A stretch of DNA of 64,000 nucleotides, taken from positions 1,534,001 through 1,598,000 of the forward strand of contig NC_011027.1 of the NCBI RefSeq assembly GCF_000020505.1. Direction: 5' to 3'. The position numbers and the translations under genes are program-made. The notes below the pieces were generated by a model. That model was not told the DNA's origin, did no database searches, and was given only the letters and a program-made list of their open reading frames with translations. This document shows, one piece after another, positions 42,554-62,481 of the stretch (its first letter is position 1; each line of letters begins with the position of its first letter). Source of the stretch: Chlorobaculum parvum NCIB 8327. GTDB lineage: Bacteria; Bacteroidota; Chlorobiia; Chlorobiales; Chlorobiaceae.

Positions 42554-43582
42554 ATGAGCTTTTTCGGTAACCTGTTCAGAGACATCGCCATCGATCTCGG
42601 AACAGCCAACACTCTCATTTTCATCCGCAACAAGGGCGTCGTGCTCAACGAGCCGTCCATCGTCGCCCGCGACCGCAATACCGGCAAAGTCGTCGCCATC
42701 GGCCACGACGCCTTGCTGATGCACGAAAAAACGCACCCCGGCATCGTCACCATCAAGCCGCTGGCCAACGGCGTCATCGCCGACTACGAGGCAACCGAAG
42801 AGCTGATTCGCGGCCTCATCAACAAGACCAAAAAGCAGTTCTCGCTCGGCATCCGCCGCATGGTGATCGGCATTCCGTCCGGCATCACCGAGGTGGAAAA
42901 ACGGGCCGTGCGCGACTCGGCAGAGCACGTCGGCGCCAAGGAGGTCTATCTGGTGGCCGAACCGATGGCCGCCGCAATCGGCATCGGCATCGACGTCAAG
43001 GAGCCGATGGGCAACATGATCGTGGACATTGGTGGCGGGACGACTGAAATCGCGGTGATCTCGCTCGGCGGCATCGCTTCGGGCGAATCGCTGCGCGTGG
43101 CAGGCACGGACATCACCAACGCCATCATCCGCCACTTCCGCAAGGCCTACAACCTGGCCATCGGCGAACGCACGGCTGAAGAGGTGAAAATCAGGATCGC
43201 ATCGGCGTACAAGCTCGACAAGGAGCTGACCATGATGGTGCGTGGCCGCAACCTGGTGACCGCCCTGCCGGAGGAACGCGAAATCAACTCCGCAACCATC
43301 CGCGAAGCGATCGCGACTCCGATCAGCCAAATCATCACCTCGGTCAAGAAGAGCCTTGAGGTCACCAAGCCGGAGCTTTCGGCGGACATCCTCGACCGCG
43401 GTTTGTTCCTTGCGGGTGGCGGCGCGTTGATCAAAGGGCTGGACAAGAAGATCAACGAGGAGACCAAGCTGATGGTGCACATCAGCGAAGACCCGCTGAC
43501 CGCCGTGGCGCGCGGCACCGGCGCAGTGCTCGAAGATCTGGAGAACTACCGCTCGGTGCTGCTCTCGACCAAGCGTTACTGA
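42554..43582 (+). CDS. mreB: Rod shape-determining protein MreB
   Basis: Actin-like cytoskeletal ATPase of 342 residues that guides side-wall synthesis. Phosphate-1 IDLGTANTLIF is near residue 11, phosphate-2 IVDIGGGTTEIAVISLGG near 156, and the adenosine motif FLAGGGALIKGLDKKI near 285. The amphipathic N-terminus MSFFGNLFRDI can bind membrane. mreC/D are not in the window. The last 7 bases overlap the convergent bshA gene. Confidence 0.96.
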   Translation: MSFFGNLFRDIAIDLGTANTLIFIRNKGVVLNEPSIVARDRNTGKVVAIGHDALLMHEKTHPGIVTIKPLANGVIADYEATEELIRGLINKTKKQFSLGIRRMVIGIPSGITEVEKRAVRDSAEHVGAKEVYLVAEPMAAAIGIGIDVKEPMGNMIVDIGGGTTEIAVISLGGIASGESLRVAGTDITNAIIRHFRKAYNLAIGERTAEEVKIRIASAYKLDKELTMMVRGRNLVTALPEEREINSATIREAIATPISQIITSVKKSLEVTKPELSADILDRGLFLAGGGALIKGLDKKINEETKLMVHISEDPLTAVARGTGAVLEDLENYRSVLLSTKRY

Positions 43583-44730
43583 GCTTTGCGCTCGCGGGCT
43601 TCGTCAATCAGCCTGCGATAAAACGCTTCGTACTCTTGAACCTTCAGGGCGGTCTCGAACCGCCCTGCCTGGTTTACGGCCGCGTCCGAAAAGCGCTGCC
43701 AGACGGCATCGTCTTTGAGAATTGAAATCGCGCTGCGGCTCATGCCTTCGATGTCGCCGTGGTCGTGCAGATAGCCGTCAATCCCCTGCCGCACGAATTC
43801 CGGGAATCCGCCCGCATCGGTCACCACCACCGGCACCCCGCATGCCATCGCTTCGAGCGCCGCAAGTCCGAACGACTCGACGTTGCTCGGCATCAGCATC
43901 AGGTCGGCAATGGAGAGCAGCGGCACGATGTCGTCGAGCTTGCCGAGGAACCGCACCTTGCTGCCAAGCCCGTTGCGCCGCACCCAGGTCTCCGCCTCGC
44001 TGCGATCCGGCCCGTCGCCCACCAGCAGCAGCGTTGCCTCAACGTCACGCTGAATGCGCTCGAACACCGCCAGCACATCCATGATGCGCTTGACCGGACG
44101 GAAATTCGAGATGTGAATCACCACCTTGCCGCCGTCCAGGCCGAGCATCTGCTTCGGGCGATTATCATCGAGACGCTTGAACAGCGCCGTATCGACAAAG
44201 TTGTGAATCACCTCGATAGGCTTGCGCGGGTCGAACATCTTGATGGTCTCGTCGCGCAGATAGCCAGACACGGCGCTGATGCCGTCCGACTTGTTGATCG
44301 CCAACCGCACCGCATCTTTCATGCTCTTGTCGGCACCGACGATGGTAATGTCCGTGCCGTGCAGCGTGGTGGCAATCCGGAAGCACTGCGACTCCGGGCA
44401 TCGCTCTTCCAGCATCTGGCGAGCCAGCACGGCGCTGATGGCATGGGGAATCGCGTAATGGGCGTGCACCACATCCAGCTCTTCGTAGTACGCGACCTCA
44501 GCGATTTTGGAGGCCAGCGCCAGCGAGTAGAACGGACTCTCGAACAGCGGATAGTGCATCGCCTCCACCTCGTGGCAGAAGATGTTCTTGGAATAGAGCC
44601 CGAGCCTGAACGGGGCTGCCTGGCTGAAAAAGTGCACCGTGTGGCCTTTCGTGGCCAGCGCCTTCCCCAACTCGGTCGCCACTGCCCCGCTACCGCCGTA
44701 GGTATGATGACAGGAAATCCCGATTTTCAT
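43576..44730 (-). CDS. bshA: N-acetyl-alpha-D-glucosaminyl L-malate synthase
   Basis: GT4 glycosyltransferase joining GlcNAc from UDP-GlcNAc to L-malate, the first step to bacillithiol. The 384-residue protein has the BshA N-terminus KIGISCHHTYGGSGAVATELG, the active-site THLHGTDIT-like TTLHGTDITIVG, and the GT4 motif ESFGLAALEAMACGVPVV near residue 290. Green sulfur bacteria are known to make N-methyl-bacillithiol, which fits. bshB and bshC are not nearby. Convergent with mreB, overlapping its end by 7 bases. Confidence 0.92.
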   Translation of the reverse strand: MKIGISCHHTYGGSGAVATELGKALATKGHTVHFFSQAAPFRLGLYSKNIFCHEVEAMHYPLFESPFYSLALASKIAEVAYYEELDVVHAHYAIPHAISAVLARQMLEERCPESQCFRIATTLHGTDITIVGADKSMKDAVRLAINKSDGISAVSGYLRDETIKMFDPRKPIEVIHNFVDTALFKRLDDNRPKQMLGLDGGKVVIHISNFRPVKRIMDVLAVFERIQRDVEATLLLVGDGPDRSEAETWVRRNGLGSKVRFLGKLDDIVPLLSIADLMLMPSNVESFGLAALEAMACGVPVVVTDAGGFPEFVRQGIDGYLHDHGDIEGMSRSAISILKDDAVWQRFSDAAVNQAGRFETALKVQEYEAFYRRLIDEARERKAQ

Positions 44731-50461: not shown

Positions 50462-51238
50462 ATGAAAGCTGTTATTCTTGCAGGTGGTCTCGGCACCCGC
50501 ATCTCCGAAGAGACTCACCTGAAGCCAAAACCGATGATTGAAATCGGTGGCAAGCCGATTCTATGGCACATCATGAAAATTTATTCGGCTTACGGCGTTC
50601 ACGACTTCATCATCTGCTGCGGTTACAAGGGTTACCTGATAAAAGAGTATTTCGCCAACTACTTTCTGCACATGTCGGACATCACGTTCGACATGGAGCA
50701 TAACGAGATGCAGGTCCATCATCATAAAGCCGAGCCCTGGCGCGTCACCCTGATCGATACTGGCGAACACACAATGACAGGTGGCCGTCTCAAGAGAGTG
50801 CAAGACTATGTGAAAGACGAGAAGGAGGTCTTTTTTACCTATGGAGATGGTGTTAGCAATATCAACATAGATAAATTGCTTGCTTTTCACCGTTCCAAGG
50901 GAGTAAAGGCTACTCTTACGGCAACCATGCCTGCTTCCGGTCGCTTTGGCGTGCTCGACATCGATAAGAACCACAAGGTTCATACCTTTAAGGAAAAGCC
51001 CAGAACCGATGGAGCAATGATTAATGGCGGCTTTTTCGTTCTCTCGCCTGAGGTGATCGATTATATTGAAGGTGATCACACCTCATGGGAACGGGAACCT
51101 CTGGAGCGTCTTGCTGGAGAAGGTGAGCTTGCCGCTTATGCCCATCATGGGTTCTGGCAGCCAATGGATACCCTGCGTGACAAGGTAATGCTCGAAGAAC
51201 TCTGGAAAACGGGCGCCGCTCCATGGAAGCTCTGGTAA
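50462..51238 (+). CDS. rfbF: Glucose-1-phosphate cytidylyltransferase
   Basis: Makes CDP-glucose from CTP and glucose 1-phosphate, the entry to CDP-dideoxy sugars. The 258-residue protein begins MKAVILAGGLGTRISEETHLK with PKPMIEIGGKPILWHIM, and has FFTYGDGVSNINI and GGFFVLSPEVIDYI, all RfbF marks. First gene of the operon, directly after the IS remnant; no strong ribosome site is visible. Confidence 0.95.
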   Translation: MKAVILAGGLGTRISEETHLKPKPMIEIGGKPILWHIMKIYSAYGVHDFIICCGYKGYLIKEYFANYFLHMSDITFDMEHNEMQVHHHKAEPWRVTLIDTGEHTMTGGRLKRVQDYVKDEKEVFFTYGDGVSNINIDKLLAFHRSKGVKATLTATMPASGRFGVLDIDKNHKVHTFKEKPRTDGAMINGGFFVLSPEVIDYIEGDHTSWEREPLERLAGEGELAAYAHHGFWQPMDTLRDKVMLEELWKTGAAPWKLW

Positions 51239-51245
51239 AGTGGTA

Positions 51246-52328
51246 ATGGCGGATGAGACGATGCTGAACAACTTATTTTGGGCCGGTAAAAAAGTTCTTG
51301 TAACCGGGCACAGCGGTTTCAAGGGCTCCTGGCTTGTTATCTGGCTGAAGATGATGGGAGCCGAGGTCTCCGGCTACGCCCTCGCTCCGTTGACTTCAAA
51401 CGACAACTTCGTACTCTCCGGCATCGGAGAGCATATCGCCTCTCAAATCGGTGATGTCAGGGATTTTGACACACTGTTTCGCGTTTTTGAACGGCAGCAG
51501 CCGGAGATCGTTTTTCATCTCGCCGCCCAGCCGCTGGTCAGGTATTCATACGAAAATCCCAAAGAGACCTATGACGTCAATGTTGGCGGCACGGTCAACG
51601 TTTTTGAATGCTGCCGCCGCTGCGATTCGGTTCGGGTGATCATCAACGTCACGACCGACAAGTGTTACGAAAACAGGGAGTGGGTCTGGGGTTACCGGGA
51701 AAACGACCGGCTTGGCGGATTCGATCCCTACAGTTCAAGCAAGGCGTGCAGCGAACTGGTGACTGAGGCTTTCCGGAACTCCTTTTTCAATCCTGCGGAC
51801 GTTGCCCGACATGGCAAAAGTCTGGCGTCGGCCAGAGCCGGCAACGTTTTCGGAGGCGGCGACTGGCAGGTTGACCGGATTCTCCCAGACTGCATAAGGC
51901 ATCTCGAAAGGGGTGAACCGATCGTGGTGAGAAATCCTCACGCTGTCCGCCCGTGGCAGCATGTGCTCGAACCGCTTTCCGGCTACCTGCTGCTGGCCGA
52001 GAAGCTCTTCGAGAATCCTGGGGTTTACGAAGGGGCCTGGAATTTCGGGCCGGAAGAGTCCAGCTTCCTGACGGTCGGTGCACTGGTCGATTCTGTCGTC
52101 AAGGTCTGGGGAAGCGGATCGCGGGAAAACCGTTCAAATCCGGAGGCAGTTCACGAGGCCCATCTGCTCAGGCTCGACATCACCAAGGCCAAAGCGCTTC
52201 TCGGCTGGAAGCCGATATGGAGCATCGATCGCGCGGTCAGCGAAACGGTGAACTGGTACCAGCAGTACCAAAGTGGCCGGATATTAGAGATTTGCCAGGC
52301 GCAGATCGAGGCTTACATGAATAGTTGA
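51246..52328 (+). CDS. rfbG: CDP-glucose 4,6-dehydratase
   Basis: Extended SDR that forms CDP-4-keto-6-deoxyglucose. NAD loop VLVTGHSGFKGSWL, then FHLAAQPLVRYSYENP, TTDKCYENREWVWGY and YSSSKACSELVTEAF (YxxxK) are visible. Start ATG 51246 is chosen; GTG 51240 is an alternative, leaving 7 or 1 bases after rfbF. About 360 residues, usual size. Confidence 0.95.
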   Translation: MADETMLNNLFWAGKKVLVTGHSGFKGSWLVIWLKMMGAEVSGYALAPLTSNDNFVLSGIGEHIASQIGDVRDFDTLFRVFERQQPEIVFHLAAQPLVRYSYENPKETYDVNVGGTVNVFECCRRCDSVRVIINVTTDKCYENREWVWGYRENDRLGGFDPYSSSKACSELVTEAFRNSFFNPADVARHGKSLASARAGNVFGGGDWQVDRILPDCIRHLERGEPIVVRNPHAVRPWQHVLEPLSGYLLLAEKLFENPGVYEGAWNFGPEESSFLTVGALVDSVVKVWGSGSRENRSNPEAVHEAHLLRLDITKAKALLGWKPIWSIDRAVSETVNWYQQYQSGRILEICQAQIEAYMNS

Positions 52329-52345
52329 CAAGCGGAGAAATGCGT

Positions 52346-53092
52346 ATGAAGGTGGTGTTTCTCGGCACGAACGGATGGTATGACTCATCCACAGGCAAGA
52401 CGATCTGTACTCTTGTCGAAACCAGCGCATCGGTGATCGTGCTCGATGCCGGTAACGGCTTGCAGAACGCTGACCGGTTCATGTGTGCCGACAAACCGGT
52501 TCACCTGTTTCTGAGTCATCTGCATCTCGATCATATTATCGGCCTGCACCTGCTCAACAAGTTCAGTATTCCAAAAGGACTGACCATTCATTGCCGTAAG
52601 GGCGATCTCCAACATCTCAAAACCATCATCGCCCCGCCCTACTCCCTGCCTTTTTCCGCCCTTTCGTATCCGGTTACGCTCAGGGAGCATGACGGAACAG
52701 CCATCGAACTCGACGGCTTTACGGTTCAGTCGGCTCCAATGCGCCACTCGGTACCCACGATCGGCTTTCGCTTAGGCATCGAAGGCAAAACCGTGGCCTA
52801 TTGCCCCGACACCGGCTACTGCCAAAGCGCGGTCGAGCTGGCCAGCAATGCCGATCTGTTGATAGCCGAATGTGCTTTTCGAAGTGGCGAAGAGAATCAG
52901 GACTGGCCGCATCTCAATCCCGAAAGCGCAGCCAGGCTCGCCCTCGAGGCAGGAGCCAAACAGCTCGCGCTGGTGCATTTCGATGCGTTCAGGTATCCCG
53001 ACAGGAAAAGCCGGATGGAGGCGGAACAGGCCGCGCGCAAGATTTTTGTGAACGTTCTGGCAGCCGAAGACGATCAGATTATTGCGTTATAA
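52346..53092 (+). CDS. Metallo-beta-lactamase-fold hydrolase
   Basis: A 248-residue MBL-fold enzyme of the RNase Z/PhnP-like branch. The metal motif SHLHLDHIIG (HxHxDH) is near residue 58, with later ligands in APMRHSVPTIGFR, YCPDTGY and LVHFDAF. ATG 52346 has GGAG 8 bases upstream and is preferred to upstream starts. Its place between rfbG and rfbH, which normally adjoin, is unusual; it may act on a cyclic or diester intermediate or a nucleotide sugar, but that is speculation. Confidence 0.82.
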   Translation: MKVVFLGTNGWYDSSTGKTICTLVETSASVIVLDAGNGLQNADRFMCADKPVHLFLSHLHLDHIIGLHLLNKFSIPKGLTIHCRKGDLQHLKTIIAPPYSLPFSALSYPVTLREHDGTAIELDGFTVQSAPMRHSVPTIGFRLGIEGKTVAYCPDTGYCQSAVELASNADLLIAECAFRSGEENQDWPHLNPESAARLALEAGAKQLALVHFDAFRYPDRKSRMEAEQAARKIFVNVLAAEDDQIIAL

Positions 53093-53123
53093 CCACAAGC
53101 AGAAACAGGAGCCCGGATAATTG

Positions 53124-54416
53124 ATGACAAACAAGGCAGAAGCTCTGAAGCAGGAGATCCTGAACAAAACCAGAGAGTACTACGAACTGGTGCACAAGCC
53201 TGCTCAGCAAGCCCCATTTCAACCCGGTCAGTCACGGGTGGCTTACGCCGGCAGGGTGTTCGATGCGCAGGAGATGGTCAACCTTGTTGACAGTTCACTG
53301 GAATTCTGGCTGACCTCCGGGCGGTATGCCGAGCAGTTTGAAAAAGAGTTTGCAACATTTCTTGGTGTTCAATATTGCTCCCTTACCAATTCCGGTTCCT
53401 CTGCAAACCTGTTGGCCTTTATGGCGCTTACTTCACCGAAACTCGGCGAGCGCCGGATAAAGCCGGGTGATGAAGTCATAACGGTAGCTGCCGGCTTTCC
53501 AACCACGGTAGCCCCGATTATCCAGTATGGAGCCATTCCGGTCTTTGTGGATGTTGTACTGCCGACCTGTAACATAGATTGCTCGCAGCTTGAACTTGCT
53601 CTATCGGATAAAACGAAAGCCGTCATGCTGGCACACACGCTGGGCAACCCTTTTGATCTTGCAACAGTCAAGGCGTTCTGTGATGCCAACAATCTGTGGC
53701 TGATAGAAGACAATTGCGATGCTCTTGGATCGCGCTATGAGTTGAACGGGAAATGGCGATATACCGGAACCATTGGCCATATAGGCACCTCCAGTTTTTA
53801 TCCCCCACACCATATGACCATGGGTGAAGGTGGGGCTATCTACACTGATGATCCGCTGCTTAAAAGGTTGATCGATTCATTCCGGGACTGGGGTCGAGAC
53901 TGCTGGTGCCCTTCAGGCAGGGACAACACCTGCGGGAACCGCTTTGGGCAGCAGTTTGGAGAGCTTCCGTTCGGTTACGATCACAAATATGTTTATTCGC
54001 ATTTCGGATACAATCTGAAAGTGACCGATATGCAGGCCGCCATTGGGTGCGCTCAACTTGAAAAACTGCCGGACTTCATTGCTGCACGCAAAAAAAACTG
54101 GCAGATGCTTCGTGATGGGCTGGCGCCCCTGGAAGACCGGTTCATATTGCCCGAGGCGACAAAAGACAGCGAGCCATCATGGTTCGGATTCTTGATGACG
54201 GTAAGAGAAAATGCAGGTATTACACGCGACCAGATGGTCAACCATCTTGAGGCTAACGGAATCCAGACCAGAATGCTATTTGCCGGGAATCTCGTCAAAC
54301 ACCCATGTTTTGATGAGATGCGTCGCGACCGAAAAGGCTACCGGGTGGTGAGGGGGCTAAAAGTCACCGACAAAATCATGCGAGATACTTTCTGGTTGGG
54401 GTGTATCCGGGAATGA
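53124..54416 (+). CDS. rfbH: CDP-6-deoxy-D-xylo-4-hexulose-3-dehydrase
   Basis: PMP-dependent [2Fe-2S] dehydrase (E1) that removes the C3 hydroxyl of CDP-4-keto-6-deoxyglucose. In place of the usual PLP lysine it has His in YPPHHMTMGEGGAI, the mark of this family; Fe-S cysteines are in RDCWCPSGRDNTC. The 430-residue length is typical. The partner reductase (E3, RfbI/AscD) is not in the window, so electrons must come from elsewhere. ATG 53124 follows an AGGAG site. Confidence 0.94.
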   Translation: MTNKAEALKQEILNKTREYYELVHKPAQQAPFQPGQSRVAYAGRVFDAQEMVNLVDSSLEFWLTSGRYAEQFEKEFATFLGVQYCSLTNSGSSANLLAFMALTSPKLGERRIKPGDEVITVAAGFPTTVAPIIQYGAIPVFVDVVLPTCNIDCSQLELALSDKTKAVMLAHTLGNPFDLATVKAFCDANNLWLIEDNCDALGSRYELNGKWRYTGTIGHIGTSSFYPPHHMTMGEGGAIYTDDPLLKRLIDSFRDWGRDCWCPSGRDNTCGNRFGQQFGELPFGYDHKYVYSHFGYNLKVTDMQAAIGCAQLEKLPDFIAARKKNWQMLRDGLAPLEDRFILPEATKDSEPSWFGFLMTVRENAGITRDQMVNHLEANGIQTRMLFAGNLVKHPCFDEMRRDRKGYRVVRGLKVTDKIMRDTFWLGCIRE

Positions 54417-54475: not shown

Positions 54476-55630
54476 TTGAACAAAAAAAAAGAGTTGTCAA
54501 GGGCGTGTCCTGTTTGCGGGTGCGGTTATGGGGAGATTATCCACCACATGGATTTTGTTTTGGAACCAGAAAACCCCTTGCCTACCTCATATGATGTTGT
54601 AAAATGCACAGATTGCTCATTTCTGTTTGCCGATGTTGATGCTGATCAGGCGAAGTATGATTTGTATTATGAGCTGCTTTCTAAGTATGAAGATAAGAAT
54701 ACAGCCTCAGGCTATGGCGATACAGAATACGATAAAAAACGATTGTCTGTTACTGCTGATTTTATATCAGGGCTATTGAGCAGAGAGAAGGCTATTCTTG
54801 ACATTGGTTCCGGAGGTGGTGGACTGTTAAAAGAACTAAAAGAAAAAGGATATTCAGACTTAAACGCTCTTGAGCCTGCCTCGAAGTGTGTTCACGAAAT
54901 GCCTTCTTACATTAATGGAAAGTCAGGATCGTTATTCGATGATTTGATGCAGATTTTTGAGGGCAAGAAATTTGACTTGATTATCCTTTCTCATGTGGCT
55001 GAACATATTTATGATTTAAAAGGGGCGCTAAAAAATGTTATATCCCTTCTTAAAGCGGATGGTAAGATTTATATAGAGGTGCCTGACGCATCAAGATATG
55101 CTAATTTTTATAAAGTCCCGTTTTATTACTTTGATGTTGAGCATATAAATCATTTTGATCGTAACTCATTGGATCACCTTGCTCTTTCTGTTGGTTTGGC
55201 CAGTAATGAGGTGGTAGAAAAAATTATTGAGGTCAGCGGAACTGATTTATATCCAGCAGTGGGCATGGTTTTTATTCGTTCAAATGCTGGATATGAATTA
55301 AAAAAATATGTTGCCAAGTCACTACTTGACACTCGGCTTGAGTCGTTAAAAAACATTATTGACTCACAGCTCAATATAGCTATATGGGGAGCAGGCAATT
55401 ATACCAAGCGCCTGCTTGCGTCTTCAATGCTGGGTGAAGCAAAGATATCTTTCTTTGTTGATTCTGATAGTGGAAAACAGGGGAAGTCGTTATTCGGCCG
55501 TCCGGTTTTTGGGCCAAATGTGTTGTGTGAATTTTCCGGACCTGTTGTTGTTGCTTCAGCACTGTTTGCTTCGGAGATTCTTGAGCAAATAAAGAAGATG
55601 AAAATCGACAATCAAGTAATTGTTCTTTAA
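54476..55630 (+). CDS. Sugar C-methyltransferase (zinc-binding, SAM-dependent), start frameshifted
   Basis: NDP-sugar C-methyltransferase of the NovU/TylC3 type: an N-terminal zinc site (CPVCGCGYG and VVKCTDCSF), SAM loop ILDIGSGGGGLL near residue 103, and a C-terminal alpha/beta domain (AIWGAGNYTKRLLA). It would methylate a keto-deoxy sugar nucleotide. The listed frame begins at a TTG. A better start, ATG 54472 after AGAAGGAAG, is out of frame by one base; shortening the A9 run at 54482-54490 by one A gives MIEQKKELSRACPVCG. Either the start is TTG or the run is variable or mis-sequenced. Confidence 0.85.
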   Translation: MNKKKELSRACPVCGCGYGEIIHHMDFVLEPENPLPTSYDVVKCTDCSFLFADVDADQAKYDLYYELLSKYEDKNTASGYGDTEYDKKRLSVTADFISGLLSREKAILDIGSGGGGLLKELKEKGYSDLNALEPASKCVHEMPSYINGKSGSLFDDLMQIFEGKKFDLIILSHVAEHIYDLKGALKNVISLLKADGKIYIEVPDASRYANFYKVPFYYFDVEHINHFDRNSLDHLALSVGLASNEVVEKIIEVSGTDLYPAVGMVFIRSNAGYELKKYVAKSLLDTRLESLKNIIDSQLNIAIWGAGNYTKRLLASSMLGEAKISFFVDSDSGKQGKSLFGRPVFGPNVLCEFSGPVVVASALFASEILEQIKKMKIDNQVIVL

Positions 55631-55655: not shown

Positions 55656-57452
55656 ATGAGAGTTGCCGATTATATAGCACAGCTTATCGCAGAACATGAG
55701 CAGACCGCGAAGACCGTTTTTATGGTCTCCGGCGGCGGAAACATGCACCTGATCGACGCTCTTGGCCGCAACGAAAAGCTCCGTTACGTCTGCAACCATC
55801 ACGAACAGGCCTGCGCGATCGCTGCCGAGGGATACTCGCGGGTGTCGAACCAGATTGGCATCGCCTATGTGACCACCGGGCCAGGCGGCACCAACGCCAT
55901 CACCGGCGTGATGGGGGCTTGGGTCGATTCGATTCCCATGCTGATTGTTTCCGGTCAGGTCAAATTCCAGACCACCATCGCCTCGCAGCCCGAACTCAAC
56001 CTTCGGCAACTCGGCGATCAGGAAATCAACATCGTCGATATCGTTCGTCCCATCACCAAGTATGCGGTGATGATTACTGACAAGAATTCGATTCGCTTCC
56101 ACCTCGAAAAAGCGTTGTATGAGGCCAAGCATGGCAGGCCTGGGCCGGTCTGGATCGACGTGCCGCTCGACATCCAGGGCGCGCAGATCGAGCCGGAATC
56201 GCTCGAAGGCTTCGCGCCGCCCCCCGAACCTGATTATGACCTGAAAATCGACCAGGTCATGACCGCTTTGAAGCGAGCCAAGCGTCCTGTGATAATCGCA
56301 GGAAACGGCATCGTACTCTCGGGCGCGGTCGGCAAGTTTCGGGCTTTGGCAGAAAAACTCGGCATTCCGGTGCTTGGCACTTTTGCCCGCTACGACATCG
56401 TAAAGGAGTCCGACCCTTGCTATGCGGGCCGGTTCGGAACCCTCGGGCATCGGGCGGGCAATTTCGCGGTACAAAACAGCGATCTTATCATCGCCATCGG
56501 AGCAAGACTTAACGTTCGAGCCATTAGCTATAACTGGGAATATTTCGGTCGTGAGGCCGAGAAAGTCGTTGTCGATATCGATGAGAACGAACTTAAAAAG
56601 CACACGATCAAAGCAGACATTCCCGTCTGTGCTGATGCGGGCGCGTTCATCAAGGCGTTGTCATGCGCACTTGAAACGCTATCACCGATGCATCAACAAT
56701 GGATGGAGCGGTGTCGCCGTTACCGGGAGACCTTCCCCACCATAATCGAAGAACGCCAGAAAGTCAAAATCAAGGTGGATTCGTACCATTTCTTCGATGT
56801 GCTTTCAGACTGCGCCCCCGACAACGCGGTGTTCGTATTCGGAAACGGCACGGCATGCGTCTCTTCTTATCAGAGCTTGCGGCTCAAACAAGGACAGAAC
56901 ATTGTCGTCAACTCGGGCTGTGCCTCGATGGGCTATGATCTTCCCGCAGCTATTGGAGCTTGTTATGCTGCGCCAGATCGCCAGATAATCTGCGTTACCG
57001 GCGACGGAAGTATGCAGATGAACATTCAGGAGTTGCAGACCATCGTTCACAATCACCTGCCGATAAAGCTGTTCGTACTGAACAACGAAGGGTATATTTC
57101 GATCCGAAACACCCAGCAAGGCTTTTTTAAAGGTCACTTTGTAGGTTGCGAAGCAAGTAGCGGCGTCAGTTGTCCCGATACCCTGAAAGTGGCCGAGGCC
57201 TATGGCCTGAAAAATGGCAGAATCGACAATCACCAAGGGCTTTCCGAGCAGATCAAAGCTTTTCTCTCAGAAGATGGACCGGTCGTATGCGAAGTCATGC
57301 TTGACCCCGGCGAAAAGATGGAACCCAAACTCTCTTCGGAAGTCAAGTCTGATGGCAGAATCGTCTCCAAACCGCTCGAAGACATGTTCCCGTTTCTCGA
57401 TCGTGATGTATTCAATCAACAGATGATTATCGGAACCATTGATGAAGATTAA
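55656..57452 (+). CDS. Thiamine-diphosphate enzyme, acetolactate-synthase-like
   Basis: A 598-residue ThDP enzyme with the usual three domains: pyrimidine-binding (catalytic Glu in HHEQACAIAAEGYSR near 49), central, and diphosphate-binding (GDGSMQMNIQELQT..NN near 447). It resembles acetohydroxyacid synthase, but there is no small subunit and the place in a sugar operon points to a C2 or acyl transfer to a sugar, as done by YerE in yersiniose synthesis, which also acts on a CDP-dideoxy keto sugar. Overlaps the next gene by 11 bases. Confidence 0.87.
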   Translation: MRVADYIAQLIAEHEQTAKTVFMVSGGGNMHLIDALGRNEKLRYVCNHHEQACAIAAEGYSRVSNQIGIAYVTTGPGGTNAITGVMGAWVDSIPMLIVSGQVKFQTTIASQPELNLRQLGDQEINIVDIVRPITKYAVMITDKNSIRFHLEKALYEAKHGRPGPVWIDVPLDIQGAQIEPESLEGFAPPPEPDYDLKIDQVMTALKRAKRPVIIAGNGIVLSGAVGKFRALAEKLGIPVLGTFARYDIVKESDPCYAGRFGTLGHRAGNFAVQNSDLIIAIGARLNVRAISYNWEYFGREAEKVVVDIDENELKKHTIKADIPVCADAGAFIKALSCALETLSPMHQQWMERCRRYRETFPTIIEERQKVKIKVDSYHFFDVLSDCAPDNAVFVFGNGTACVSSYQSLRLKQGQNIVVNSGCASMGYDLPAAIGACYAAPDRQIICVTGDGSMQMNIQELQTIVHNHLPIKLFVLNNEGYISIRNTQQGFFKGHFVGCEASSGVSCPDTLKVAEAYGLKNGRIDNHQGLSEQIKAFLSEDGPVVCEVMLDPGEKMEPKLSSEVKSDGRIVSKPLEDMFPFLDRDVFNQQMIIGTIDED

Positions 57453-58107
57453 GAAGATTCTGGTTACCGGCGGCACAGGGGGGATCGGATCCTCGATAGT
57501 CGCTTGCTTGTCCGCACAGCCTGGCTTTGTCGTCCACGCTCCCAGCCGGAGCGAGCTTGATCTGGGCTTGCAGGAGAGCATTAAAGAATATTTTTCCCGG
57601 AGTTCAGACTATGATATTGTTATTAACAATGCCGGGATCAACACTCCACAAAACATCGAACAGATCGAAACTGAGCAGATCGAAACTGCCCTGAACATCA
57701 ATCTTGTCGCCCCTCTTCTTGTCATCAAGTACTGCGTACCGCACATGAAGCGACAAGGTTTTGGGCGAATCGTCAACGTCAGCTCGATCTGGGGGATTCG
57801 CTCAAAGGAGAGACGAACCCTCTACTCGGCTACCAAGTTTGGCCTAAACGGTATGACCAGATCACTTGCCAGAGAACTCGGGCCGTTCAATATACTGGTC
57901 AACTCGATCTGTCCCGGCTATGTCGATACAGCCCTGACCCGGAAAAACGTGACGCCAAAGGAGCAGGAAAAGATCAGGCAGGAAATTCCGCTGCGGCGCT
58001 TTGCCGAGCCTCGGGAGATTGCCGAATCGATCGCGTTTCTGGTCAGCGAGCGCAACTCGTACATGACCGGCCAAACCCTTATTGTCGACGGGGGATTTAT
58101 AGCATGA
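57442..58107 (+). CDS. Short-chain dehydrogenase/reductase
   Basis: A classical SDR of 221 residues: cofactor loop VTGGTGGIGSSI, NNAG, Ser in NVSSIWG, catalytic YSATK (YxxxK), and the closing FLVSERNSYMTGQTLIVDGGF. It overlaps the ThDP enzyme by 11 bases and the cyclase by 4, so the three are co-translated. It probably reduces the keto group formed by the ThDP enzyme. Confidence 0.9.
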   Translation: MKIKKILVTGGTGGIGSSIVACLSAQPGFVVHAPSRSELDLGLQESIKEYFSRSSDYDIVINNAGINTPQNIEQIETEQIETALNINLVAPLLVIKYCVPHMKRQGFGRIVNVSSIWGIRSKERRTLYSATKFGLNGMTRSLARELGPFNILVNSICPGYVDTALTRKNVTPKEQEKIRQEIPLRRFAEPREIAESIAFLVSERNSYMTGQTLIVDGGFIA

Positions 58108-59180
58108 CCGATCTGCTGATCAAGTCGAACATAAGGGACTACAAAGTTGTTTTCGAGAACACGATTGACAGGGTCTCGAAAGCCATTCAGCCGTTGCCGA
58201 ACAAAGTGTTGATCGTCGATTCCAATGTTCTGGAAATCTATCGCTCCGACATCGACCGGATGGCTGATGCAGCCGACATTATCGCCTTCGAAGCGGTCGA
58301 AGAGAACAAAAACCTTGAGGCGGTTTCTGGCATCTATTCGTCACTGATTGACCGGAATGCCAAACGAAATATCAATTTGGTTTCAATCGGAGGAGGCATA
58401 ACCCAGGATGTAACCGGTTTCGTTGCCTCCACGCTCTACCGAGGAGTTAACTGGACGTTCGTACCCACGACCTTTCTAGCCCAGACCGACAGTTGCATTG
58501 GTAGCAAAACCTCTTTGAATTTCGGCAGCCGTAAAAACCTGCTTGGGACTTTTTACCCGCCAGCGACTATCTATCTCTGCCCGGCATTGCTCTCCTCGCT
58601 GACCGAAATCGATTATTACAGCGGCATCGGTGAAACCATCAAGTTTCAGTTGATGAATCCGTTTGCCAAACCCGACCTTTATCAGATAGCTGAAAAAATC
58701 GAACAGGTCAAACGTCATGAAATGCTTGATGAGATCATCAGGGAAAATATGGCGATCAAAATCGATTACATGGAAAACGATGAATTCGATCTTGGCAGAA
58801 GAAATCTGCTCAATTATGGGCACTGCTTCGGCCATGCGCTTGAAATATCCTCAGGCTATGCCATACCTCACGGCATAGCCGTTTCGATCGGCATTCTGTT
58901 TGCCGGGACTATATCGGTTTCCAGAGGAGTAATGAGTCAGGAAATGTTAGAAGGTATTAAAAAAATTGTGCTCCCCTGCCTGCCTATCGCGTTCGATTCG
59001 CGGCATTATGATGCGGACTTACTGCTTGCAGCTATGAAAAATGACAAGAAACGCATTGGGGCAGATTTGAGTATTGTACTTGCCGATAAAGAGTTCATGC
59101 TGGCCAAATATGACGATCTCAAGGTGGATGAATTCAGGACGGGGTTACAAACATTAATTGAAATTTTTGAGAATCAGTGA
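58104..59180 (+). CDS. Dehydroquinate-synthase-like sugar phosphate cyclase
   Basis: A 358-residue NAD- and metal-dependent cyclase homologue. VSIGGGITQDVTGFVASTLYRG and FVPTTFLAQTDSCIGSK are the DHQ synthase motifs; metal ligands are Glu in GIGETIK, His in NYGHCFGHALE and His in IPHGIAVSIG. It is unlikely to be the housekeeping AroB because it sits in a polysaccharide operon and differs at conserved spots (DSCIGSK instead of DSSVGGK). The product may be a carbocyclic sugar analogue. Confidence 0.88.
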   Translation: MTDLLIKSNIRDYKVVFENTIDRVSKAIQPLPNKVLIVDSNVLEIYRSDIDRMADAADIIAFEAVEENKNLEAVSGIYSSLIDRNAKRNINLVSIGGGITQDVTGFVASTLYRGVNWTFVPTTFLAQTDSCIGSKTSLNFGSRKNLLGTFYPPATIYLCPALLSSLTEIDYYSGIGETIKFQLMNPFAKPDLYQIAEKIEQVKRHEMLDEIIRENMAIKIDYMENDEFDLGRRNLLNYGHCFGHALEISSGYAIPHGIAVSIGILFAGTISVSRGVMSQEMLEGIKKIVLPCLPIAFDSRHYDADLLLAAMKNDKKRIGADLSIVLADKEFMLAKYDDLKVDEFRTGLQTLIEIFENQ

Positions 59181-59181
59181 T

Positions 59182-59970
59182 ATGAACAGTATTGAATATC
59201 AGATGCTCGATGTCCTCAAACAACTTCGTGATGAGTATGGGGTGTTCGAGATCAAGGCGGAGTTTGAAGCCGAGGGGAGCAGGATTGAGGAGATGATGCG
59301 CCTCAAGGACGTTACCTCTAAGGTTAACCTGCCGATTATTCTTAAAATCGGCGGGGTTGAAGCCGTAACCGATATTTACAACGGCCTTTCCATCGGAGTC
59401 AAAGGCGTCATTGCGCCCATGGCGGAGACAGCGTTTGCCGTCTCGAAGTTTCTAAATGCTATCAAAACCTTTGTTGCTGAAGATAATCGCGCCGATATTG
59501 ATTTTGCTATTAATATTGAAACCATTACAGCATACAACAATCTGGATGAAATCTTTGCTCTTGAGCATATCGATTTGTTGCATGGCATTACAATGGGAAG
59601 AGTGGATTTTGTTGGCTCGATAGGCCGTGACCGTCATATCGTCGATAGCGATCAGATGTACGACTATTGCCATACGGTGTTCAGCAAGGCTAGGCAGAAA
59701 GGACTGAAAACCGGCCTGGGCGGTGCCATCTCGATCGGGTCTATCGATTTCATTTCAAAGCTCCATTCTGAAGCGCTGATCGATAAATTTGAGACCAGAA
59801 AAGTTGTTTTCAAATCGAATTCTATACTTAATGATCCTGAGAAAGCTATTCTCAAAGCGGTTGAATTCGAATTGCTCTGGCTCAAGAGTAAGCGCCGTTA
59901 CTATCACCGCGTCAAGTCCGAAGATGAATATCGCATCGAAATGCTCGAAAAAAGGCTTGGTCAGGCATAG
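59182..59970 (+). CDS. HpcH/HpaI-type aldolase or lyase
   Basis: A 262-residue TIM-barrel protein with the HpcH/HpaI/CitE pattern: KIGGVEAVTD, GVKGVIAPMAETAFA, the metal Glu in FAINIETITAYNNLDEI, and GRVDFVGSIG with the conserved Asp. These use pyruvate or acetyl-CoA enolates with an aldehyde. ATG 59182 begins one base after the cyclase stop. Together with the cyclase it may make a 2-keto-3-deoxy acid or act on one; no precedent is known to me for this pair in a surface-sugar operon. Confidence 0.78.
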   Translation: MNSIEYQMLDVLKQLRDEYGVFEIKAEFEAEGSRIEEMMRLKDVTSKVNLPIILKIGGVEAVTDIYNGLSIGVKGVIAPMAETAFAVSKFLNAIKTFVAEDNRADIDFAINIETITAYNNLDEIFALEHIDLLHGITMGRVDFVGSIGRDRHIVDSDQMYDYCHTVFSKARQKGLKTGLGGAISIGSIDFISKLHSEALIDKFETRKVVFKSNSILNDPEKAILKAVEFELLWLKSKRRYYHRVKSEDEYRIEMLEKRLGQA

Positions 59971-60006
59971 TTACAGTGCCTTATGCAGCACCAGAACGAT
60001 GAAAGC

Positions 60007-60987
60007 ATGACAATCAAGCGATTGTTTCTGACTGGAGGGACCGGCTTCTTCGGAAAATCTCTCCTTCGATACTGGATACAACAATCAACGCAGGGCAAAT
60101 CTGTTCCGGCAGTAACCCTCATGAGCCGTTCTCCGGATGCCTTTCTTGCATCCTATCCTGAGTTTGTTGGGCTGCCTTGGCTTACGCTTGTCAAGGGAGA
60201 CGTTACAATGCCGAAAACTTTCCCAACCGAGCTGAATTGTTCTCACATCCTGCATGCCGCCACGGACTCTACCAACGGCCCGATGTTGACTCCGCTGGAA
60301 CGCTTTAACCAGATTGTTGATGGTACGCGCAATGTGCTTGATTTTGCACATCGGGTCGAAGCAACACGTTTTCTGCTGACAAGTTCCGGTGGCGTTTACG
60401 GCCCACAACCAGAAAAAATGGAGCGTATTCCCGAAGACTATAACGGTATGCCAGACCCGCTTCAGCCAAGCCATGCGTATAGCGTTGCCAAGCGCACAGC
60501 CGAACACTTGTGTGCGCTGTATGGCGACGCATTTGGTATAGAAATATTGGTGGCGCGTTGCTTTGCCTTCGTCGGCCCGGACTTGCCGCTTGATGCGCAT
60601 TTTGCAATCGGGAACTTCATCGCAGATGCTGTTGCCGGTCGTCAAATCACAATCAAGGGAAATGGGTTGCCGATTCGTTCTTATCTCGATCAAAGTGATC
60701 TTGCAACATGGCTATTGACGATACTTGAACATGGTCAATCCGGTCGGCCCTACAATGTCGGATCCGATCAAGCGATCACTCTTCTTGAACTTGCCAATAT
60801 GGTTGCCGAAACTGTTCATCCAAAAGTGCCGGTGCAGGTGCTCGACACTGGTATAGATGCTGGAAATTTCAGACGTCGGTATGTCCCCGACATTACGCGC
60901 GCATCAAAAGAACTTGGTCTGACTGTTACTGTGCCATTGCATGAGGCAATCAAACGTGCCGTTATGGCTGCTCGTGGAGCTGATTGA
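60007..60987 (+). CDS. NAD-dependent epimerase/dehydratase (extended SDR)
   Basis: A 326-residue nucleotide-sugar SDR: FLTGGTGFFGKSLL binds NAD, ILHAATDST, TSSGGVYGPQ and AYSVAKRTAEHL (YxxxK) form the active site, and GNGLPIRSYLDQSDLATWL is the substrate-binding part seen in epimerases. It may finish the keto-sugar. An earlier in-frame ATG at 59983 is possible. The stop overlaps a tiny HAD-like remnant. Confidence 0.88.
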   Translation: MTIKRLFLTGGTGFFGKSLLRYWIQQSTQGKSVPAVTLMSRSPDAFLASYPEFVGLPWLTLVKGDVTMPKTFPTELNCSHILHAATDSTNGPMLTPLERFNQIVDGTRNVLDFAHRVEATRFLLTSSGGVYGPQPEKMERIPEDYNGMPDPLQPSHAYSVAKRTAEHLCALYGDAFGIEILVARCFAFVGPDLPLDAHFAIGNFIADAVAGRQITIKGNGLPIRSYLDQSDLATWLLTILEHGQSGRPYNVGSDQAITLLELANMVAETVHPKVPVQVLDTGIDAGNFRRRYVPDITRASKELGLTVTVPLHEAIKRAVMAARGAD

Positions 60988-61082
60988 TGCAGGCAATAGT
61001 ATTTGATCTCGATGACCGGCTGGCCTGCCTCCGGGTGTACGAGGAGTATCTGTCAATCAACCGCAAACAGCAAGGGAGGTAG
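60987..61082 (+). pseudogene. HAD-hydrolase N-terminal remnant
   Basis: A 31-codon frame starts at an ATG that overlaps the epimerase stop. It reads MQAIVFDLDDRLACLRVYEEYL: the first HAD motif (DxDDT/L) is recognisable but the rest of the enzyme is gone, so a HAD phosphatase gene was probably deleted here. It ends in the ribosome site of gtrA. Confidence 0.45.
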
Positions 61083-61086
61083 CGGT

Positions 61087-61512
61087 TTGGGTCAGAAAAC
61101 ACTGCAGACAGGTTTTGCCGGTCTGCTGACAGAGGCTCGATACCGGAATCTCCGGTATCTGCTGGCGGCTGGCTGGAATACTCTTTTCGGCTATTTTGCG
61201 GGCGTTGGCTTGTACCTCACGCTGTCGAAATTCATCCATATAACCATCATCGGGCTGATCGGCAATATCGTTTCCATTGCCATGTCATTTGTTGTTTACA
61301 AATTATTTGTCTTTCGTACCAAGGGACGGTGGTTTATTGAATATCTCAAAAGCAATATCGTTTATGGCTTTGGTGCGCTCATTGGCATTGTCCTGCTCTG
61401 GCTGCTGGTGGATTATGCCCGGCTTTCGATCTGGATCGCGCAGTTTCTTATTATTGCCGTTACAGCGCTGATTTCTTTTTTTGGACACCGAGGCTTTACC
61501 TTCAAACGATAA
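61087..61512 (+). CDS. GtrA family membrane protein
   Basis: A 141-residue, four-helix membrane protein of the GtrA family, thought to flip lipid-linked sugars. RYLLAAGWNTLFGYFAGVGLY is the family opening and FFGHRGFTFKR the close. TTG 61087 is chosen as start: AGGGAGG lies 7 bases before it. An earlier frame start at 61003 falls inside the HAD remnant. Paired with the GtrB-like gene downstream. Confidence 0.88.
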   Translation: MGQKTLQTGFAGLLTEARYRNLRYLLAAGWNTLFGYFAGVGLYLTLSKFIHITIIGLIGNIVSIAMSFVVYKLFVFRTKGRWFIEYLKSNIVYGFGALIGIVLLWLLVDYARLSIWIAQFLIIAVTALISFFGHRGFTFKR

Positions 61513-61524
61513 CCATGTTTTGTT

Positions 61525-62481
61525 ATGAATGAGAGCGGTAAAAAGATGATCAGCCTGGTCTCTCCTTGTTTCAATGAAGAGGAGAATGTCGAGGAACTCT
61601 ACCGGCAGCTCACTGCCGTCATGGCTGGCATGGAAGGGTACGACTACGAATTCATTCTGATCGACAATGCCTCGACGGATTCGACGGTGCAGAAAATCAA
61701 GAGGATCGCCGCGCAGGACAAGCGGGTGAAGTTGATTGTCAATTCGAGAAATTTCGGTCATATCCGCTCTCCGTATCATGCGATACTTCAAAGCAGCGGA
61801 GATGCCTGTATCGTGATGGCGTCAGATCTCCAAGACCCGCCAGACATGATTCCGGAACTCATAAAGAAATGGGAAGAGGGTGCGCAAATCGTAGCGGCTG
61901 TCAAAAAAGAGAGCAAGGAAAGCAAGTTGATGTTCGGCATTCGAAAGCTGTATTACGGTCTGCTCAAATCCGTATCGGATGTGAATATCATCCAGAACTA
62001 TACCGGTTTCGGCTTGTATGACCGAAAGATCATAGAGATTCTGAAGAACATTCCAGACCCTTATCCGTTTTTCAGAGGCATTATTGCTGAAGTCGGGTTC
62101 AGGGTTGAGCGGATTACCTATACCCAGCCGAGACGAGCGCGAGGTATTACCAAGAACAACTTTTTTACCCTGTACGATATCGGGATTCTGGGTATCATCA
62201 GTAATTCCAAAGTCCCGTTACGACTTGCGACGTTTTCCGGCTTTGTGCTTTCGTTTTTGAGCTTTCTGGTCGGGATCGGCTATCTTGTTGGCAAGCTCAT
62301 CTTCTGGGACAATTTTCAGGCAGGCATCGCGCCGCTACTTATCGGTAATTTCTTTTTCTTCGGCCTGATGCTGTTTTTTATCGGCATTCTTGGGGAATAC
62401 GTGGGGGCAATTTACACTCAGGTTCTTGCGAGACCGCGGGTGTACGAATCCGAGCGGATCAATTTTGACCAGACAGAGTGA
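61525..62481 (+). CDS. GtrB-like family 2 glycosyltransferase
   Basis: A 318-residue enzyme that transfers a sugar from a nucleotide to polyprenyl phosphate. The GT-A domain has LVSPCFNEEENVEELY, EFILIDNASTD and MASDLQDPPDMI (metal site); two C-terminal helices (about 230-300) anchor it. Directly follows gtrA, as in O-antigen modification loci: GtrB loads, GtrA flips, and a GT-C enzyme transfers. Confidence 0.92.
   Translation: MNESGKKMISLVSPCFNEEENVEELYRQLTAVMAGMEGYDYEFILIDNASTDSTVQKIKRIAAQDKRVKLIVNSRNFGHIRSPYHAILQSSGDACIVMASDLQDPPDMIPELIKKWEEGAQIVAAVKKESKESKLMFGIRKLYYGLLKSVSDVNIIQNYTGFGLYDRKIIEILKNIPDPYPFFRGIIAEVGFRVERITYTQPRRARGITKNNFFTLYDIGILGIISNSKVPLRLATFSGFVLSFLSFLVGIGYLVGKLIFWDNFQAGIAPLLIGNFFFFGLMLFFIGILGEYVGAIYTQVLARPRVYESERINFDQTE

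Follow-up and report, generated by a model that had tools for sequence, protein, structure and literature searches.

A predicted caryophyllose-type branched-sugar cassette in Chlorobaculum parvum and a proposed non-cyclizing role for its AroB-related phospholyase

INTRODUCTION

What do a dehydroquinate (DHQ) synthase-like protein and an HpcH/HpaI-superfamily aldolase do beside the genes for a branched surface sugar? The question is raised by Chlorobaculum parvum NCIB 8327 (genome of 2,289,249 bases), in a stretch of 64,000 nucleotides (contig NC_011027.1, positions 1,534,001 to 1,598,000; hereafter "the window"). Five open reading frames (ORFs), all on the + strand at 55656-60987, encode a YerE-like thiamine diphosphate (ThDP) lyase/carboligase (55656..57452), a classical short-chain dehydrogenase/reductase (SDR; 57439..58107), an AroB-related sugar-phosphate phospholyase (the sugar-phosphate cyclase homologue, SPC; 58104..59180), the aldolase (ORF 59158-59970, likely gene 59182..59970), and an extended SDR, similar to epimerases/dehydratases dependent on nicotinamide adenine dinucleotide (NAD; 59983..60987). 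The gene ends overlap or are separated by no more than 12 bases, and thus resemble those of a translationally coupled operon.

An earlier note on this DNA proposed that these proteins could make a cyclitol-type acid from a 2-keto-3-deoxy phosphate. We lean instead towards a caryophyllose-type C4-branched sugar, predicted from gene content and made by a route in which SPC eliminates phosphate and closes no ring. We propose that the cassette encodes a variant YerE-like branched-sugar pathway in which the cyclase homologue catalyses a new reaction. The note's observation and its branching idea are right; its carbocycle is probably wrong.

RESULTS

A ThDP enzyme predicted to branch a CDP-dideoxy sugar

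Protein families were assigned with Pfam and NCBIfam profiles at curated cutoffs. The five adjacent genes are real, and they lie downstream of a complete + strand gene set for cytidine diphosphate (CDP)-4-keto-3,6-dideoxyglucose: glucose-1-phosphate cytidylyltransferase (DdhA/RfbF; 50462..51238; TIGR02623, 458.5 bits, cutoff 300.25), CDP-glucose 4,6-dehydratase (DdhB/RfbG; 51240..52328; TIGR02622, 486.9 bits, cutoff 278.45), and CDP-4-keto-6-deoxyglucose 3-dehydrase (RfbH/DdhC; 53121..54416; NF011936, 722.3 bits, cutoff 423).

The ThDP enzyme has three TPP_enzyme domains and a GDGSM...NN cofactor motif. Its nearest solved protein is JanthE (8rph, 475 bits), followed by acetolactate synthase (5ahk, 285 bits), which supports the yersiniose-like, C4-branching ThDP step on a CDP-3,6-dideoxy sugar that the earlier note had envisaged. 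YerE-like enzymes use CDP-4-keto-3,6-dideoxyglucose as the acceptor for 2-oxo acids, and the 2-oxo acids accepted by ErwE, JanthE, and the Mycobacterium marinum enzyme include 4-hydroxy ones, which are aldol products (PMC12247030, PMC12188165).

A 2-keto-3-deoxy-acid-forming enzyme accompanies the ThDP gene

A gene-neighbourhood check indicates that the grouping is not due to chance. DdhA, DdhB, RfbH, the ThDP enzyme, the aldolase, the classical SDR, and SPC are found together repeatedly, with their order shuffled. Scanning named genomes yielded 72 loci in ~20 phyla by record title, mostly in metagenome assemblies. SDR and SPC form the most constant pair, the classical SDR (PF13561, 162.8 bits in the window) nearly always adjoining SPC in many phyla. 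SPC is present in only 2 of the 21 genomes of the genus that were sampled.

Among loci with both ThDP and SPC genes, 65 of 68 carry one of three non-homologous 2-keto-3-deoxy-acid enzymes: an HpcH/HpaI protein (59 loci), a NeuB-family protein in its place (4 loci: L007, L008, L029, and L042), or an HMGL-like protein nearest to 4-hydroxy-2-oxovalerate aldolase (2 loci: L037 and L070). Of the three exceptions, two are fragments of 3 kb. In whole-genome searches, the genomes of the NeuB or HMGL-like loci yielded no HpcH/HpaI protein of the cassette type. The chemistry common to the three families joins pyruvate or phosphoenolpyruvate to an aldehyde, giving a 2-keto-3-deoxy acid. The count supports the idea, also in the earlier note, that the aldolase makes a 2-keto-3-deoxy acid phosphate. 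It likewise makes very improbable a plain yersiniose-type pathway, in which pyruvate would be the ThDP donor and SPC, SDR, and aldolase would make an unrelated acyl or cyclitol decoration: ThDP-only loci lacking a C3 enzyme and SPC do exist (L212 and L213), but the ThDP gene is almost always linked to one of the three unrelated enzymes, and its characterised relatives accept longer donors.

The window aldolase, of the class II pyruvate-aldolase type, matches PF03328 (34.3 bits, cutoff 25) and probably starts at ATG 59182, because its homologues begin at MNSxE. Its AlphaFold2 model (mean pLDDT 93.0) is nearest to SbnG (Z 18.6) and AbHpaI (Z 18.0), with pyruvate kinases, which have the same barrel, scoring about equal; a PDB sequence search with the aldolase gave no match. 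Invariant residues are K63, E121, D150, and E212-T213-R214; E121 and D150 are the predicted metal-binding acidic residues, and K63 lies in a sequence stretch comparable to that around the substrate-binding Arg70 of HpaI. A distant subfamily of the aldolase is found in many spirochaete genomes.

SPC keeps the DHQ-synthase active site in two gene contexts

SPC falls within the NCBIfam family TIGR04425, "AroB-related putative sugar phosphate phospholyase (cyclizing)" (451.9 bits, cutoff 400), and below the cutoff of the aroB model TIGR01357 (260.4 bits, cutoff 305). It is not the genome's sole aroB, a possibility that would have undone the earlier note: the ordinary aroB, with a stronger match to DHQ_synthase, is found at genome positions 815557-816495. 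In a tree, 84 SPC rows are set apart from AroB at a 100/99 branch, with the ThDP, cytidine monophosphate (CMP), phage, and mycobacterial contexts all on the SPC side. Spirochaete SPC-like proteins at L065, L067, L069, and L072 group with AroB and belong to a different conserved gene set.

The alignment shows that SPC keeps every catalytic, metal-binding, and carboxylate-binding residue of DHQ synthase in all contexts, residue roles being those of the Aspergillus nidulans enzyme. In particular, the carboxylate-binding pair, K219 and R233, is invariant. Y13, Q101, W117, C131, and S137 are fixed in SPC only, and S8 is nearly fixed. The AlphaFold2 model (mean pLDDT 93.9) is closest to DHQ synthase (1xag; Z 41.4, root-mean-square deviation 2.3, 347 residues aligned), with DOIS and EEVS behind it (Z 37.5-38.4). 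In the sedoheptulose-7-phosphate cyclases EEVS and DDGS, the DHQ-synthase carboxylate-binding residues are presumably replaced. The retention of an acid-binding active site suggests that SPC acts on a 2-keto acid phosphate.

SPC has a second, CMP-type context, in which the SDR-SPC pair (L011, L013, L016, L048, L055, L058, L059, and L066) accompanies a GmhA-like isomerase, a Gfo/Idh/MocA oxidoreductase, a 2-hydroxyacid dehydrogenase, and a PseF-like cytidylyltransferase. Context switches on the tree indicate that it arose at least two times. It may represent a CMP-7-deoxy-heptulosonic acid pathway; in whole-genome searches, the aldolase was absent from most CMP-context genomes. At L013 the set lies near a flagellin gene.

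Ring closure at C2 would consume the 2-keto group that the ThDP lyase, or a CMP-ulosonate-type transferase, needs, and for this reason we propose that SPC does not cyclize its substrate. We consider it unlikely that SPC closes a carbocycle like DHQ synthase, so that a cyclitol (acid), or a ring formed on the branch after ThDP transfer, enters the surface sugar. The complete DHQ-synthase active site and fold, the word "cyclizing" in the family name, and the existence of bicyclic bacterial sugars such as bradyrhizose favour such a ring. Yet the free 2-keto group is needed downstream in both contexts, and closure after transfer would leave unexplained why the same active site is kept in CMP-type loci that have neither ThDP nor CDP-dideoxy genes. 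Bradyrhizose (made by a cluster of eleven genes that includes a dTDP-glucose 4,6-dehydratase-like gene) and caryose were considered as products for their rings and not adopted.

SPC and SDR form an optional module that alternates with phosphatases

Judged by gene content, the aldolase belongs to the ThDP step, and SPC/SDR is a separate module. Two loci of Pseudomonadota (L159 and L161) have aldolase and ThDP genes without SPC/SDR, and a third (L160) has the aldolase with CDP-dideoxy genes, no ThDP gene being seen there. SPC-less loci with a C3 enzyme contain an ORF with a HAD-phosphatase motif in 9 of 12 cases, versus 2 of 60 SPC loci (Fisher p 1.3e-7, with fewer independent events than loci because several of the loci are closely related). 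HAD phosphatases were scored by motif; a similarity scan is biased by its queries. The alternation between loci suggests that SPC/SDR and HAD phosphatase are two ways of removing the terminal phosphate, and it too speaks against the cyclitol-type acid, since simple phosphatases take the place of SPC/SDR.

At L159-L161, a protein that we take, from a Cys motif read by eye, to be radical-SAM-like lies between the aldolase and a reductase (e.g. L160:7698-8864), with more such genes nearby; it possibly provides an alternative branch modification.

The modularity also bears on the order of steps. The same sugar could arise if SPC and SDR converted a small aldose phosphate, erythrose 4-phosphate for example, into an omega-deoxy aldehyde before the aldolase added pyruvate to it. 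This order, which we rate as quite unlikely, accords with SPC/SDR being optional beside the aldolase and ThDP enzyme, and with the radical-SAM gene standing beside the aldolase instead in three SPC-less loci. The invariant K219 and R233, however, suit an acid substrate, and the HAD phosphatases of SPC-less loci suit a phosphorylated aldol product.

A proposed non-cyclizing pathway

In the pathway that we favour, with the aldolase acting before SPC and no ring being closed, DdhA, DdhB, and RfbH would provide CDP-4-keto-3,6-dideoxy-D-glucose, as expected from their families and the known pathway. The aldolase would join pyruvate to a sugar aldehyde phosphate, of which D-erythrose 4-phosphate is the likeliest, and so form a 2-keto-3-deoxy-heptonate 7-phosphate, probably the 4-epimer of 3-deoxy-D-arabino-heptulosonate 7-phosphate (DAHP). 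SPC would then carry out NAD-dependent oxidation, phosphate elimination, and re-reduction, releasing the open-chain 7-deoxy-6-ketone without closure at C2, and the classical SDR would reduce C6 to give a 2-keto-3,7-dideoxy-heptonate. By homology to YerE and JanthE, the ThDP enzyme would decarboxylate this acid and link the C6 acyl chain to C4 of the CDP sugar. Finally, the extended SDR (PF01370, 122.5 bits) may reduce the branch ketone, and the GtrA and glycosyltransferase family 2 (GT2) proteins encoded downstream may pass the sugar to a polyprenyl carrier and the cell surface. In net terms, SPC and SDR would turn a terminal CH2-O-phosphate into CH3, and other strains would dephosphorylate it to CH2OH.

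With D-erythrose 4-phosphate as the aldehyde, non-cyclizing SPC and SDR would give a 1,3,4,5-tetrahydroxyhexyl branch at C4 of a 3,6-dideoxyhexose, that is, caryophyllose.

Mycobacterial loci match the gene order of the caryophyllose locus

The mycobacterial loci form a series from ThDP alone (L212 and L213), through ThDP with NeuB or aldolase (L198-L202, L205, L206, L210, and L211), to ThDP with aldolase, SDR, and SPC (L203, L204, L208, and L209). The full gene set is SPC-SDR-aldolase-ThDP-GT2-DdhA/RfbH-DdhB-GtrA; at L208 the order is SPC, SDR, aldolase, ThDP, GT2, DdhA, RfbH, DdhB, GtrA, membrane protein, methyltransferase, and polyketide synthase (PKS). Beyond SPC in L208 lies an ORF that we take, by eye, to be an FGGY-type kinase. 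At L207, a similar ORF and a DegT-like aminotransferase homologue follow the cassette genes.

Counting along this order from the ThDP gene as MMAR_2332 places the glycosyltransferase at 2333, the methyltransferase at 2339, and the PKS at 2340. In M. marinum, 2333 is a glycosyltransferase and 2340 a PKS (PMC4403928), and the PKS and methyltransferase form an operon, 2340-2339 (PMC12395582). The L208 order fits this numbering, which would make MMAR_2331 the aldolase. Caryophyllose is no longer added when MMAR_2331, 2332, or 2333 is deleted (PMC5706390).

Caryophyllose is 3,6-dideoxy-4-C-[D-altro-1,3,4,5-tetrahydroxyhexyl]-hexopyranose, with CH2 at C2′ and CH3 at C6′ (PMC5706390), a C12 sugar with a hydroxylated C6 chain (PMC7821131). 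By our own derivation, D-altro implies a D-ribo order at C3′-C5′, which fits D-erythrose 4-phosphate and a C4 centre configured oppositely to that of DAHP; the latter would account for ordinary DAHP not being used. The mycobacterial SPC loci match the locus of an acyclic sugar whose methyl-ended branch is exactly the one expected of non-cyclizing SPC, a further point against the carbocycle. The window has the caryophyllose-type set together as in these loci: CDP-3,6-dideoxy genes, ThDP enzyme, aldolase, SPC-SDR, GT2, and GtrA.

Viral contigs carry the cassette

Twelve viral contigs carry SPC, and 11 of them also carry RfbH, aldolase, and ThDP genes. IMG/VR contigs L107-L116 contain RfbH-aldolase-SDR-SPC-ThDP (e.g. 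L109:6957-12624). Four viral contigs (G085, G086, G089, and G091) have a T4-type gp23 capsid gene, three have a terminase, and L109 has T4-type clamp and clamp-loader genes. T4-like phages thus seem, from this gene content, to encode the branched-sugar pathway. In a collection of named phages there was no SPC-type match, only aroB-like ones; a plasmid search gave only ordinary aroB-like matches of <36% identity, and the one checked with annotation belonged to an aromatic-acid cluster.

Other genes of the window

Downstream of the five genes, on the + strand, lie an ORF presumed by recognition to encode a GtrA-like protein, a putative polyprenyl-phosphate-sugar flippase (61003..61512), whose homologues adjoin cassette loci including those of mycobacteria, and an ORF for a GT2 (GtrB/DPM-like) transferase (61525..62481), which matches in tblastn the glycosyltransferase beside the mycobacterial ThDP gene (~33-35% identity). 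At other loci, neighbour clusters show the extended SDR of the window replaced by a different extended SDR (cluster 5).

Between DdhB and RfbH, also on the + strand, lies a putative metallo-beta-lactamase (MBL)-fold hydrolase (52325..53092; PF12706, 88 bits). Such a hydrolase, RNase Z/PhnP-like, occurs within the CDP-dideoxy-sugar operon in Chlorobiaceae and a WOR-1 genome (L003:5438-6184; L004, partial; L073:5986-6735). A + strand S-adenosylmethionine methyltransferase (Methyltransf_23; 54476..55630; PF13489, 72 bits) follows RfbH and might methylate a sugar. Upstream of the cluster, 43576-44730 encodes what we take to be a BshA-like glycosyltransferase.

DISCUSSION

For the window, we favour a caryophyllose-type product made without ring closure. 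The broader generalization, for which we see even chances, is that TIGR04425 proteins are non-cyclizing NAD-dependent phosphate lyases that, with the SDR, make omega-deoxy ulosonic acids for ThDP-branched and CMP-activated sugars in ~20 phyla and T4-like phages.

Several points weigh against this interpretation. The enol intermediate of DHQ synthase probably cyclizes readily unaided, so that SPC would need to suppress cyclization actively. Three SPC-less loci (L205, L210, and L211) have no recognised HAD phosphatase, and mycobacterial L207 has ThDP, SDR, and SPC genes and no recognised aldolase. The window operon showed no DdhD/RfbI, which usually serves RfbH as its reductase partner. The source of the 2-keto acid in most CMP-type loci is guesswork. 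Finally, L203-L209 are tied to M. marinum by their gene order and numbering, which is support rather than proof.

If true, the pathway explains the donor for a large group of YerE-like branched-sugar loci and fills in steps missing from caryophyllose biosynthesis. It would also assign a function to a widespread family whose only annotation is that of a putative cyclase, and would be a case of the DHQ-synthase fold being used for deoxygenation. Gene content would then predict long-branched surface sugars according to whether the ThDP gene stands alone, with aldolase and phosphatase, or with aldolase and SPC/SDR.

The earlier note knew of no described pathway with this combination. Erwiniose, gastriose, caryophyllose, and YerE-like enzymes are described; what stands is that neither the cyclase homologue nor the SDR nor this aldolase is given a role in the accessible literature on such branched sugars.

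Comparison with known systems places the proposal as follows. SPC shares with AroB its fold and all catalytic residues, but differs in its sub-cutoff aroB score, its separate clade, and its fixed active-site residues, in a genome with an aroB elsewhere. DOIS and EEVS have the same superfamily and fold and are structurally somewhat less close to SPC than DHQ synthase is; they presumably lack the carboxylate-binding pair that SPC keeps. Yersiniose A biosynthesis (YerE/YerF) uses the same CDP-4-keto-3,6-dideoxyglucose acceptor and C4 branching, but its donor is pyruvate and its branch only C2, without aldolase or SPC. The erwiniose branch is also shorter than that proposed here, and the accessible literature reports no SPC for erwiniose. 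ErwE and JanthE are ThDP enzymes of the same type as that of the window, and the donors preferred by ErwE are 4-hydroxy-2-oxo acids (PMC12247030); the GDG of the window enzyme is CDG in JanthE. Closest is the caryophyllose pathway of M. marinum lipooligosaccharide (MMAR_2331-2333), which shares the CDP-dideoxy-sugar genes, YerE-like ThDP enzyme, GT2, and GtrA, and the predicted product class is the same; the window proteins, however, are only ~33-53% identical to the mycobacterial ones, and the window product is predicted from gene content.

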